From a virus, in the IMG/VR virus record IMGVR_UViG_3300033388_006103, positions 1 through 34,567 of that record: a stretch of 34,567 bases of DNA. One strand, 5' to 3'. Shown piece after piece: positions 11,672 through 14,625 of the stretch (positions within the stretch are counted from its first letter, which is position 1; each line of letters begins with the position of its first letter). The notes beneath the pieces were generated by a model. That model was not told the origin of the DNA, searched no databases, and saw only the letters and a program-made list of their open reading frames with translations. The position numbers and the translations under genes were made by a program.

Positions 11672-12199
11672 ATGTCATTAGTCGACAATTTAAGCAGCCT
11701 TTACAACGTAGCTACGATAGTACTGGTGGGAGCTGCGACTTTAACGAGTCCACACGCCCATGCCAAAACGCTAGAACATGCCACGGGAATGCATATGGGG
11801 ATTGGGAATTTGACAATTATGGATTCAAACATGAGCCATGTCTATCAAGTCAGTGATAACTTCACGGTAAAATCAAGCATCATTGACGACCTCAAAGTAA
11901 TAGGAAATGCGTACTTCCATCGGGCTGAGATTGGGGAAGGTTCATTTGTAGGGTCAGTAAACGCTGGCTCATCAACTGTCTTTCATCATGACGTTAACTT
12001 AACGACAGCTCTTTCAACATTCTCAGATAGCTACATTTATGGAAATCTCAATGTCGACCATCACGGCGATATAAAGACCTCTCCGCAAATCTCGCTATCT
12101 AACACAAACATAACTGGTGATATCGTCTGTAAAGATCACTGCTATGTGCACTCGTTCAATAGCTCTTTTAACGAACTAAAGAACGGAACTTTAAATTAA
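11672..12199 (+). CDS. Exported beta-rich protein with CxxxC, linked to the peptide-modification genes
   Basis: The 175-residue product has an N-terminal export signal: hydrophobic core NVATIVLVGAATL and a likely cleavage after AHA (residue 31). The mature part is a series of short polar/hydrophobic turns (NFTVKSSIIDDLKVIGNAY, HDVNLTTALSTFSDSYIYG, NLNVDHHGD), like a bactofilin-type or right-handed beta-helix repeat. Near the end lies CKDHC (Cys153, Cys157), the same CxxxC spacing as in the following peptide. Ribosome site AGGAGAT is strong. It lies just upstream of the peptide and radical SAM genes, so it is a candidate partner, second substrate or immunity factor; that role is inferred from context alone. 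Confidence 0.6.
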   Translation: MSLVDNLSSLYNVATIVLVGAATLTSPHAHAKTLEHATGMHMGIGNLTIMDSNMSHVYQVSDNFTVKSSIIDDLKVIGNAYFHRAEIGEGSFVGSVNAGSSTVFHHDVNLTTALSTFSDSYIYGNLNVDHHGDIKTSPQISLSNTNITGDIVCKDHCYVHSFNSSFNELKNGTLN

Positions 12200-12218
12200 A
12201 AATCAATAAGGAAAAATT

Positions 12219-12434
12219 ATGAAAAATACACCAAAGAAAATAATCAGTTTAATTGCGTTAACAGCTATCAGTGCGCTCAGTATTAATGCTGGAGCTGCAA
12301 CTATCAATAAATATGGCCAATTTGATAGCCAAACCAAGATAGTCAAAGTTAGTTCAGATGATTATTACTCATCCAGCGAGGCTCGATTAGACCAAATCCT
12401 CAGAGGGAACGGTACTTGCGGAATCGGATGTTAA
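12219..12434 (+). CDS. Candidate RiPP precursor peptide, secreted, C-terminal TCGIGC
   Basis: The 71-residue product has a classic Sec signal (KKIISLIALTAISALSINAGA, cleavage likely near residue 26), then a polar mature peptide with DDYYSSSEARLDQILRG and the terminal GNGTCGIGC (Cys67, Cys71). A small peptide with a Gly/Cys-rich end, directly before a radical SAM enzyme, is the classic layout of a RiPP precursor; the C-terminal core is the probable site of modification. The ribosome site is AAGGAA. A strong terminator follows, which should make peptide mRNA more abundant than enzyme mRNA. I do not recognise the family. Alternatively it is just a small exported protein. Confidence 0.62.
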   Translation: MKNTPKKIISLIALTAISALSINAGAATINKYGQFDSQTKIVKVSSDDYYSSSEARLDQILRGNGTCGIGC

Positions 12435-12450
12435 ATATCTAAGTTAACCC

Positions 12451-12476
12451 AGGGGGCGTTCTGTCCCCTTTTTTTT
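12451..12476 (+). terminator. Rho-independent terminator between precursor and radical SAM gene
   Basis: AGGGG (12451-12455) pairs with CCCCT (12465-12469) and is followed by a run of eight T (12469-12476). It lies between the peptide stop and the enzyme start, so partial read-through would set a high peptide-to-enzyme ratio. Confidence 0.8.
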
Positions 12477-12487
12477 AGGATAGAAAA

Positions 12488-13516
12488 ATGAAAAACAGAA
12501 TCAAGTTACATCAAATTGAAGAAAGCACAACTCATGAAGTCATGCGTTTAACCATCCTCCCCACTGAAGACTGTATTCTCAAGTGCTATTACTGCTATGA
12601 ATCCCATATGTGGCTGCCTAGAGGACATTGCGAGTTAAAGCCATTGTCAAGAGATCACATCGAGGGAATTAAAAACCTAATAACTCAAAACGCTTATCGA
12701 GGGCTGAAAATGTTAATCCTGGCCTGGTTTGGGGGAGAGCCTCTCATGTGCATCGACATCATTGAGGAAATCTCGCAACACGCATTGGGGCTGGGTTTGA
12801 ACGTTGTGGGAGATGCTACAACTAATGGCGTGTACTTGAATTTAAAAAACTTTAAAAAATTAATAAAATGTAATGTCCTGGGATATAAAATTTCACTAGA
12901 TGGAGCTAAAGAAGATCATGACAAGACACGAGTCTCGAAGAGTGGCAAAGGTACATATGACAGAATCTGGTCCAACCTGATAGCCATAAAAAATACTAAA
13001 GAAAAATTCCAGATCTCTTTACGCGTGCATGTTCATGAAAAAAATTTCCCACGCATTGAGGGTTTTATTGAATTATTGACTGAGACTTTCTTGGATGATG
13101 ATAGATTTGTTTTAGAATTAGAGCCTATTCGAGATCATGGGGGAGATTCAGTGACTAAAGTCAAACTCCTTAAGCTGATGGAGAAAGGTAATAAATATTT
13201 TAGCATCAAGATTGTAGGCAAAAGAATACGTCTTGAAAATCATCTTCCCACTCAGCATCGAGTCCATATCCAGAAAGACAAAGAGCCATACGTGTGTTAT
13301 GCGGCAAAACCTAACTCATACGTAATTAGGGCAAGTGGGAATATAGCAAAATGTACTATAAAACTTGAACAAATAATTGGCGTACTGATGAATGATGGAG
13401 AAATGAGATTCAATAAAGAAAAACTCGAATACTTTAATCGTGGTTGGGGGGACTTTAAAACCAAAACCATCAACAAGAATCTAGCTCAGTTAGCCTGTCC
13501 GATGTTTGCTTCATAA
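12488..13516 (+). CDS. Radical SAM peptide maturase with shortened SPASM/twitch-like tail
   Basis: The 342-residue enzyme has the radical SAM cluster motif C29-ILK-C33-YY-C36, the GGEP motif (82-85) for SAM binding, and KISLDGAKEDHDKTR (134-148) typical of the anSME/SPASM group. These enzymes use a 4Fe-4S cluster and SAM to make carbon-centred radicals on peptide side chains. The C-terminal domain has C270 and C289 (SGNIAKC), and then CPMFAS ends the protein at C337, where family members normally continue with further cluster Cys. The tail is thus short. Two neighbours (exported protein, small peptide) make peptide modification the likely job. The start ATG follows AGGA; a terminator follows the gene. 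Confidence 0.92.
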   Translation: MKNRIKLHQIEESTTHEVMRLTILPTEDCILKCYYCYESHMWLPRGHCELKPLSRDHIEGIKNLITQNAYRGLKMLILAWFGGEPLMCIDIIEEISQHALGLGLNVVGDATTNGVYLNLKNFKKLIKCNVLGYKISLDGAKEDHDKTRVSKSGKGTYDRIWSNLIAIKNTKEKFQISLRVHVHEKNFPRIEGFIELLTETFLDDDRFVLELEPIRDHGGDSVTKVKLLKLMEKGNKYFSIKIVGKRIRLENHLPTQHRVHIQKDKEPYVCYAAKPNSYVIRASGNIAKCTIKLEQIIGVLMNDGEMRFNKEKLEYFNRGWGDFKTKTINKNLAQLACPMFAS

Positions 13517-13529
13517 AAATCTAAATACC

Positions 13530-13552
13530 GAGGGGCTTGCCCCTCTCCTTTT
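13530..13552 (+). terminator. Rho-independent terminator after the radical SAM gene
   Basis: GAGGGGC (13530-13536) pairs perfectly with GCCCCTC (13539-13545), followed by a short T-run (13549-13552). It isolates the cargo operon from the origin. Confidence 0.75.
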
Positions 13553-13556
13553 AAAG

Positions 13557-13863
13557 TTATCCACAGACCAGTTATCCACAGTCGGCGTATCAGTAATATT
13601 ATTAATATATATAATAATATTTAGTATGTCGATTTTGACCGGGCAGGTTGTGTCGATTTTGACCGGGCACATCCCTTATTCGCGGATTATTTCGGATTAT
13701 TGTGGATAACTACAGTTATAGAGCCACTACTAATACTTATATTATTTAGTATGTCGATTTTGACCGGGCACACTTTTGCCATGGCAAGGAAATGCTTTGC
13801 CATGGCAAACAATATCCAGCTATAAATACTTATATTATTTAGTATGTCGCTTTTGATACGGCA
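13557..13863. other. Plasmid-type replication origin (DnaA boxes, iterons, AT-rich palindrome)
   Basis: Two direct perfect DnaA boxes TTATCCACA (13557-13565, 13572-13580) and one inverted (13701-13709) flank an AT-only palindrome, AATATTATTA (13595-13604) with TAATAATATT (13612-13621). Four iterons follow, consensus TGTCGATTTTGACCGGGCA, at 13627-13645, 13651-13669, 13752-13770 and a diverged copy at 13845-13863. A Rep-like gene reads toward it. This is the layout of iteron plasmids opened by DnaA plus Rep. Confidence 0.8.
13776..13808. repeat. Paired 12-bp palindromes within the origin
   Basis: TTGCCATGGCAA occurs at 13776-13787 and 13797-13808, exactly 21 bases apart (two helical turns), between iterons 3 and 4. 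Likely a binding site for a dimeric regulator of replication. Confidence 0.6.
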
Positions 13864-13872
13864 CATTGTCAA

Positions 13873-14625
13873 TTAGAGAGAAATCTCATTCATTATTTTG
13901 CGTAATCTTACTTGAGAATCTTCAAACGGAAGTATCGGACGAGGAGCGTTAGCTCTGGGAGATAGAGGTAAATCTTCAGGCAAAAACAGCTTGAATTGAC
14001 GCATTTGATGTTGATTCTTGACCTCAGAAAAACCCATAAAACCCTGGGTCTTTAACTTTTGAAGCAACCTAAAGTAGGTCTTTACTGACTGATGAAGGTA
14101 AACCATAACCTCGGTGTTTTTAAATTCTAAATACTCAGGATAACCCTGTAAAACAAATTGCTGATAAAGAAAAATAAAGGCTAATTTTCCCGCGCGTGGG
14201 ATTTTTTTATCTCGAACCCAGTTATTTAGCCAGAAATAAACGGAATGAGGAATAAGAAAACAGGATGTAGTTAACCTTTTTGGCTTAAAAGTATTGACGG
14301 AGTTATGCACTCTACCAGTAGAAATTTCAACTAAATCATAAGTTAATAGCTGGTTTTTAGCGTTGTGATAGGTGTGAGATCGCGTAAAAGCAGTCTTGTA
14401 CATCAGCTCTTTGGCGCTTATCTTGAATTTCTCGTTGGAATTGCTTGAGTACGCTTGAAGAAGAGTTATGTATAAATCGTAAGCATCTATCGTAAGAGAA
14501 GAATAAGTATTTTTTAAGTAATCATAAGAAACAGGAATAGTGAGATAACCTGTGGATTTTAAATCCTGTTTTCTCAAGAATGCTGCTTGACTTGGAGGCT
14601 GGTTGTGGTAAATTGCTTCTTGCAT
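13873..14625 (-). CDS. Probable plasmid replication initiator (Rep), winged-helix type
   Basis: The 250-residue product has a likely winged helix from about residue 45 to 105: IDAYDLYITLLQAY, then KFKISAKELMYKTAFTRSHTYHNAKNQL, then LLTYDLVEISTGR. A second helical region (IFLYQQFVLQGY, YLHQSVKTYFRLLQKLK) may be a second winged helix. That two-domain pattern is usual for iteron-binding Rep proteins. It ends ten bases from the iteron array. Upstream is a pair of inverted repeats that could control copy number. There is no other replication protein in the window. I infer the function from fold hints and position rather than a recognised family. Confidence 0.58.
   Translation of the reverse strand: MQEAIYHNQPPSQAAFLRKQDLKSTGYLTIPVSYDYLKNTYSSLTIDAYDLYITLLQAYSSNSNEKFKISAKELMYKTAFTRSHTYHNAKNQLLTYDLVEISTGRVHNSVNTFKPKRLTTSCFLIPHSVYFWLNNWVRDKKIPRAGKLAFIFLYQQFVLQGYPEYLEFKNTEVMVYLHQSVKTYFRLLQKLKTQGFMGFSEVKNQHQMRQFKLFLPEDLPLSPRANAPRPILPFEDSQVRLRKIMNEISL

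Follow-up and report, generated by a model that had tools for sequence, protein, structure and literature searches.

Why should a phage encode a radical SAM enzyme next to a short Cys-containing peptide that carries a Sec-like signal? This question is raised by the window analysed here, the complete stretch of 34,567 bases of an IMG/VR virus record, which encodes a podovirus-type gene set: a terminase that is kin to marine podovirus terminases, a head-tail adaptor, a major head protein, a tail protein and YqaJ/ERF recombination genes. Downstream of a run of small plus-strand genes and a resolvase-like gene, a compact three-gene cassette occupies positions 11672-13516 of the plus strand. A first-pass annotation had proposed that this cassette is a peptide-modification cargo of the phage. 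All three of its ORFs were found as described there, namely a gene for a 175-aa protein, a gene for a 71-aa peptide ending in GNGTCGIGC, and a gene for a 342-aa radical SAM enzyme with C29, C33, C36, WFGGEP and ISLDG (Table 1). A ribosome-binding context of about AGGAAAAATT-ATG precedes the peptide gene and recurs in relatives. No RNA family and no tRNA were found in the window.

Table 1. Features of the cassette and their positions in the window
Feature	Positions	Strand	Basis
Exported beta-solenoid protein, 175 aa	11672..12199	+	ORF; homologues at the same place in L087, L088 and L098
Precursor peptide, 71 aa, C-terminal GNGTCGIGC	12219..12434	+	ORF; counterparts in three other phages
Sec-type signal peptide of the precursor, residues 1-26, MKNTPKKIISLIALTAISALSINAGA; predicted cleavage site	12219..12296	+	n/h/c-region heuristic
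Family-type leader motif TINKYGQFDSQ, residues 28-38	12300..12332	+	PSSM
Putative core N64-G-T-C67-G-I-G-C71; Cys71 free or second site	12408..12431	+	NxxC enrichment, NxxcA precedent
Terminator-like hairpin and T-run between peptide and enzyme genes, probable attenuator	12451..12477	+	
Radical SAM peptide maturase with single-cluster twitch-like domain, 342 aa	12488..13516	+	
Terminator-like hairpin ending the cassette	13530..13545	+	Counterparts 3' of the enzyme gene in L087 and L088

An alignment-guided scan of IMG/VR viral contigs revealed L087, L088 and the fragment L098, whose contig ends inside the enzyme gene. In all three, a gene for a beta-solenoid protein, one or two genes for Sec-like Cys peptides and the enzyme gene follow each other in the same order as in the window. 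Thus, in a survey of the neighbourhood as suggested by the annotation, the three-gene set is kept among related phages, and its identical order in divergent contigs shows that the ORFs are more than a chance arrangement. The enzymes of L087 and L088 are 42% and 39% identical to that of the window, and both contigs also keep the Rep-like gene, the recombination genes and the terminase in a window-like layout. L098 harbours two tandem peptide genes, the products of which end in TGCGVNCSC and TACGVNCSC; with a dN/dS of about 0.17, these peptides are under purifying selection. No such cassette is present in L124 and L125, which are related to the phage more distantly (terminase identity about 50%). 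In a tree computed by a quick method without bootstrap, the three phage enzymes that are of full length group in a single clade (SH-aLRT 99), which lies on long branches nearest to beta- and gammaproteobacterial enzymes, and the relatives of the enzyme and of the beta-solenoid protein together give a hint at a gammaproteobacterial host. When IMG/VR was scanned with single-sequence patterns of the enzyme or the terminase, no matches were obtained, whereas the alignment-based scans succeeded; a second phage-specific IMG/VR scan added no further phage.

The enzyme carries the CxxxCxxC motif of the radical SAM superfamily and matches PF04055 with 37.5 bits (cut-off 29.5). Six Cys residues, C29, C33, C36, C270, C289 and C337, are retained in 98-100% of about 90 homologues, the first three without exception. 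The annotation had spoken of SPASM/twitch enzymes. After the radical SAM core only C270, C289 and C337 are conserved, so that the seven-Cys pattern of a full SPASM domain is absent, while a twitch-type pattern (Cx9-15Gx4C plus a further Cys) is present in the form C270-x13-G284-x4-C289 and C337 (98-100%). The three conserved Cys of the C-terminal domain suggest a single auxiliary cluster that is bound by three protein ligands. Streptococcus-like relatives (L161-L164) contain a longer set of Cys residues. A fused N-terminal RRE was not found, as only 28 residues precede C29 and Pfam revealed no further domain. The AlphaFold2 model of the enzyme (pLDDT 84.7, pTM 0.87) is closest to CteB, anSME and ChlB, with Z about 22 (22.8 for CteB), and its matches also include SkfB and EpeE. 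The thioether maturase CteB (PDB 5WGG/5WHY) is the closest solved structure by sequence profile as well as by model; it shares about 21% identity with the phage enzyme in an alignment that starts near CteB residue 90-104, and it is the longer protein, its radical SAM core being preceded by about 100 residues.

In NCBIfam, the best match of the phage enzyme is TIGR04463 (radical SAM/SPASM RiPP maturases, rSAM_vs_C_rich), which covers residues 15-328 with 124 bits against a cut-off of 525. Membership in TIGR04463, PapB or CefB was rejected because the scores are below the curated cut-offs, and the five enzymes examined in full are far under every NCBIfam cut-off. All 51 family members tested match TIGR04463, and it is their commonest match; a literature search for this model found nothing. 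The chromosomal enzymes (L007-L086 and others) constitute a broad family: short radical SAM proteins of the twitch type, with NxxC-type precursors, that occur in many bacterial phyla and in some archaeal bins. NCBIfam 20.0 holds no model that fits this family.

What is the substrate? Many chromosomal relatives of the enzyme are preceded by a gene for a short Cys peptide, and some of these peptides share the core of the phage peptide almost to the residue (Winogradskyella GNGTCGLGC, Nostoc NGVCGINC, Tenacibaculum NGVCGAGC, Chromobacterium NGICGIKC). This bears out the proposed peptide-modification cargo, and we consider it very probable that the cassette modifies a peptide. A crude count of upstream ORFs with any Cys pair gave a modest enrichment (35/80 versus 18%), and therefore leader and core motifs were used instead. 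Precursors were picked by hand according to leader motif and Cys content, not according to NxxC. In their cores, 38% of the Cys residues have an Asn at -3, compared to 2-16% at other offsets. The NxxC motif is present in 28-29 of 37-38 precursors (6 expected) and NGxC in 14 of 38 (0.8 expected), and CxxxC is also enriched (18/38, 3.3 expected). Every phage peptide contains NxxC: NGTC in the window, NSGC, NTIC, NAGC and NISC in L087, NCYC in L088, and NCSC in both peptides of L098. The core of the window peptide is better put as N64-x-x-C67 plus C71. In L088 and L098 the motif has the form NCxC and adjoins a CG[IV]NC motif, and pairing with another residue is possible there.

A precedent for such a core is NxxcA of Streptococcus orisratti, in which the radical SAM enzyme NxxcB joins Cys23 to the beta-carbon of Asn20 (PMC8326336, PMC13361665). 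Based on this precedent and on the enrichment of NxxC in the family, we predict a beta-thioether between Asn64 and Cys67, and we regard a thioether of the NxxC type as somewhat favoured. The streptococcal RaS-RiPP system, a ranthipeptide, resembles the phage cassette in its NxxC precursor core and in having a radical SAM enzyme with an auxiliary-cluster domain. It differs in that its enzyme is described as SPASM-type and that of the phage is twitch-like with three Cys, a comparison made by description; further, the phage precursor has a Sec signal and the phage locus an attached beta-solenoid gene. A search of Bacilli for NxxcB returned enzymes of the SPASM type; some lie close to Rgg-like genes, and NxxC peptides were absent. 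The characterised thioether maturases have a full SPASM domain, in contrast to the twitch-like domain of the phage enzyme. The CxxxD/E core of PapB is not seen in the family, in which 0% of the Cys are followed by D at +4, and the corresponding model NF047865 gave 84 bits against 340.

The Sec-like signal noted in the first-pass annotation is borne out by the sequence, and it is unusual. The phage peptides start with an n-region of 2-4 K/R, which gives way to hydrophobic residues from position 7-8 onwards, and an AxA/SxA-type site lies near residues 23-27; this call relies on a heuristic and on comparison with the non-Sec precursors of the family. The annotation had left the choice that either modification precedes export or the signal doubles as the leader. 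A leader motif of the type [IV][DN]xxG fits 30 of 32 curated chromosomal precursors, and a PSSM was built from 30 chromosomal precursors, with a leave-one-out range and a shuffle p as references. In the window peptide, the motif TINKYGQFD directly follows the signal with a score of 7.2, which is within the leave-one-out range (shuffle p 0.025). Thus, in this peptide the signal seems to have been added in front of the leader instead of replacing it, which refines this choice; in the precursors of L087, L088 and L098 the motif is not significant by the same PSSM, and there a separate leader is undetectable. An Acetobacter plasmid relative with a Sec-like signal has a clearer leader motif (p 0.002). 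This locus (L006:3664-4966, Acetobacter tropicalis plasmid pAtBDGP1A) represents an independent Sec-signal precursor with an NGNC core and an enzyme of the same family, and it lies beside genes for an ABC permease and a TolC-type protein. On a Deinococcus plasmid, a gene for a small Sec-like Cys peptide (L004:5107-5283) is located immediately 3' of a longer relative of the enzyme.

The chromosomal relatives use another export route. A C39 peptidase-exporter is encoded near 26 of 80 chromosomal loci, and 15 loci combine C39 with a curated precursor. A pattern search recognised the double-glycine leader in 13 of these 15, and GG is visible by eye in the remaining two; among loci without a C39 exporter, the double-glycine leader is found at 7 of 22. 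In the window, C39 and ABC queries had no match. Thus the chromosomal loci with a precursor, a twitch-type radical SAM enzyme and C39 (Pseudoalteromonas, Nostoc and others) have a homologous enzyme, the same leader motif and the same core type, but combine a double-glycine leader with a dedicated exporter where the phage has a Sec signal. The simplest reading of the sequences is that the phage directs its peptide to export by the Sec machinery of the host. Modification should precede export, since the enzyme lacks a signal and uses Fe-S clusters, and Sec export after modification appears fairly probable to us; conceivably, the peptide could also be exported by Sec before modification. With similar confidence we propose, for a phage-encoded RiPP system, the mechanism given below as far as Sec export; this grade excludes the biological role. 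A survey of MNIO-modified peptides describes a Sec signal as highly unusual for a RiPP precursor and names bufferins as the only case in which use of Sec was shown in the native host (PMC12452194).

The ratio of peptide to enzyme may be set at the level of transcription. Between the two genes a GC-rich hairpin is present in all four phages, with a T-run in the window, L088 and L098; the hairpin of L087 is strong and has no T-run, and the folding z-scores of the hairpin in the window and in L098 are modest when taken alone. The hairpin is a probable attenuator, at which partial termination would yield the precursor in excess over the enzyme.

The third component, the 175-aa protein, has a signal-like N-terminus (MSLVDNLSSLYNVATIVLVGAATLTSPHAHA), and the four phage homologues share the N-terminal sequence M[SA][LM][VA]D[NK]LS[ST]. 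It had been annotated as an exported CxxxC protein. A C-terminal Cys pair (C153-x3-C157 in the window) is indeed conserved among the phages, with the reservation that the spacing in L087 is CxxxxC, and AlphaFold2 predicts a confident beta-solenoid, with residues 41-175 all beta and mostly at a pLDDT of about 90. A Foldseek search of this model against the PDB gave no match below E 0.001, and pectate lyases and pentapeptide-repeat proteins were discarded as relatives because their resemblance is only weak. A beta-solenoid protein was detectable at only one of the 80 chromosomal loci, the gammaproteobacterial L047, where genes for a precursor (LCGVGC), a beta-solenoid protein of weak homology and the enzyme stand in a row. 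At L047 neither the precursor nor the beta-solenoid protein has a Sec signal, whereas in the phages both are predicted to be exported. This single contrast, drawn between one phage clade and one chromosomal locus, suggests that the peptide and the beta-solenoid protein act together. Exported relatives of the protein are encoded directly 5' of RimK-like ATP-grasp genes (PF08443) in the small-genome gammaproteobacteria G246 and G342 (L142:3848-6015 and L143:3618-5814), hinting at a wider link of such proteins with peptide-modifying enzymes. Another relative lies beside an ABC-transporter ATPase fragment (L144:4053-4979, G032).

Based on these observations, we propose the following mechanism. The 71-aa peptide would be a precursor, produced in excess over the enzyme by means of the attenuator-like hairpin. 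The cytosolic enzyme would recognise the [IV][DN]xxG motif next to the signal and introduce a thioether into the NGTC core at the C-terminus, where the sulphur of Cys67 would most likely be joined to the Asn64 beta-carbon, by analogy with NxxcA; Cys71 would stay available. The modified peptide would leave via the host Sec pathway, which would replace the double-glycine/C39 exporter of many chromosomal relatives, and in the periplasm it may meet the Sec-exported beta-solenoid protein, a putative carrier, receptor or immunity partner. Finally, the system may serve the phage during its residence in the host by altering the envelope. It is from sequences and models that we deduce the modification, the type of bond, the order in which modification and export occur, the partnership and the benefit. 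Taken as a whole, the picture of a viral radical-SAM thioether peptide which uses Sec in place of a double-glycine leader and exporter, has a periplasmic beta-solenoid partner and acts on the envelope as an effector of a resident phage is tentative, and an envelope-directed role during residence is, on its own, rather doubtful; whether toxin, exclusion factor or envelope modifier, the roles named so far are guesses.

The enzyme may modify the peptide with a bond other than the proposed Asn-Cys thioether, such as a sactionine bond from Cys to an alpha-carbon in CGIGC, an epimerisation or another C-H change, with the two Cys forming a disulfide after export. The enrichment of CxxxC, the recurrence of CGxxC and structural matches that include CteB, anSME, SkfB and the epimerase EpeE are compatible with this; however, a link between Asn and Cys agrees better with the sharp maximum of Asn at -3 of Cys, and several NxxC precursors such as those of L034 (NGNCRC) and L020 (NNSCTNSGC) lack CxxxC, so that we consider another bond unlikely, though worth keeping in mind. 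If, on the other hand, the product bound metal and were exported for the protection of the infected cell, it would resemble the bufferins, the precursors of which likewise combine a Sec signal with a Cys-containing core and export by the general pathway (PMC12452194), and the phage peptides would retain free Cys. But bufferins are made by an MNIO (DUF692) enzyme with another partner, and Pfam and NCBIfam scans of the phage cassette recognised radical SAM only, without an MNIO enzyme or partner gene; moreover, the window peptide contains only two Cys and no His, and no metal-related neighbours were seen, which makes such a function quite improbable.

It is slightly less probable still that the beta-solenoid protein is the real or a second substrate and the small peptide a cofactor or regulator. 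Retention of the Cys pair in all four phages and the position of beta-solenoid relatives in G246 and G342 next to ATP-grasp genes speak for this, but the C-termini of the beta-solenoid proteins have no NxxC, the chromosomal enzymes pair with peptides and in only one of 80 loci with a detectable beta-solenoid protein, and the tandem peptides of L098 fit the role of substrate. That the phage carries these host genes as passengers, with no role that is maintained, would agree with the absence of the cassette from L124 and L125. Yet this is largely contradicted by the conserved gene order, the hairpins and the intact active sites of phages whose enzymes share only about 40% identity, and by the low dN/dS of the tandem peptides, and we give it very little credence.

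In the literature searched, peptide-modifying radical SAM cassettes are hardly described for phages. The cassette is kept across divergent phages and is small enough to be cloned as a whole, and it would make it possible to examine directly whether Sec can export a radical-SAM peptide after its modification. Further, since the enzyme belongs to a wide family with NxxC cores, the chemistry learned from it would apply to many bacterial loci.

The annotation had also assumed expression from a plasmid state of the phage. Downstream of the cassette, positions 13555-13865 contain iteron-like direct repeats (four of 21 nt) and two DnaA-box-like repeats, which adjoin a Rep-like ORF on the minus strand (13873-14625) that belongs to no known family and had no match in plasmids. 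At the equivalent place, repeats of other sequence are present in L087 (7140-7218) and L088 (7247-7291). The case for a plasmid state of the phage is thus circumstantial.
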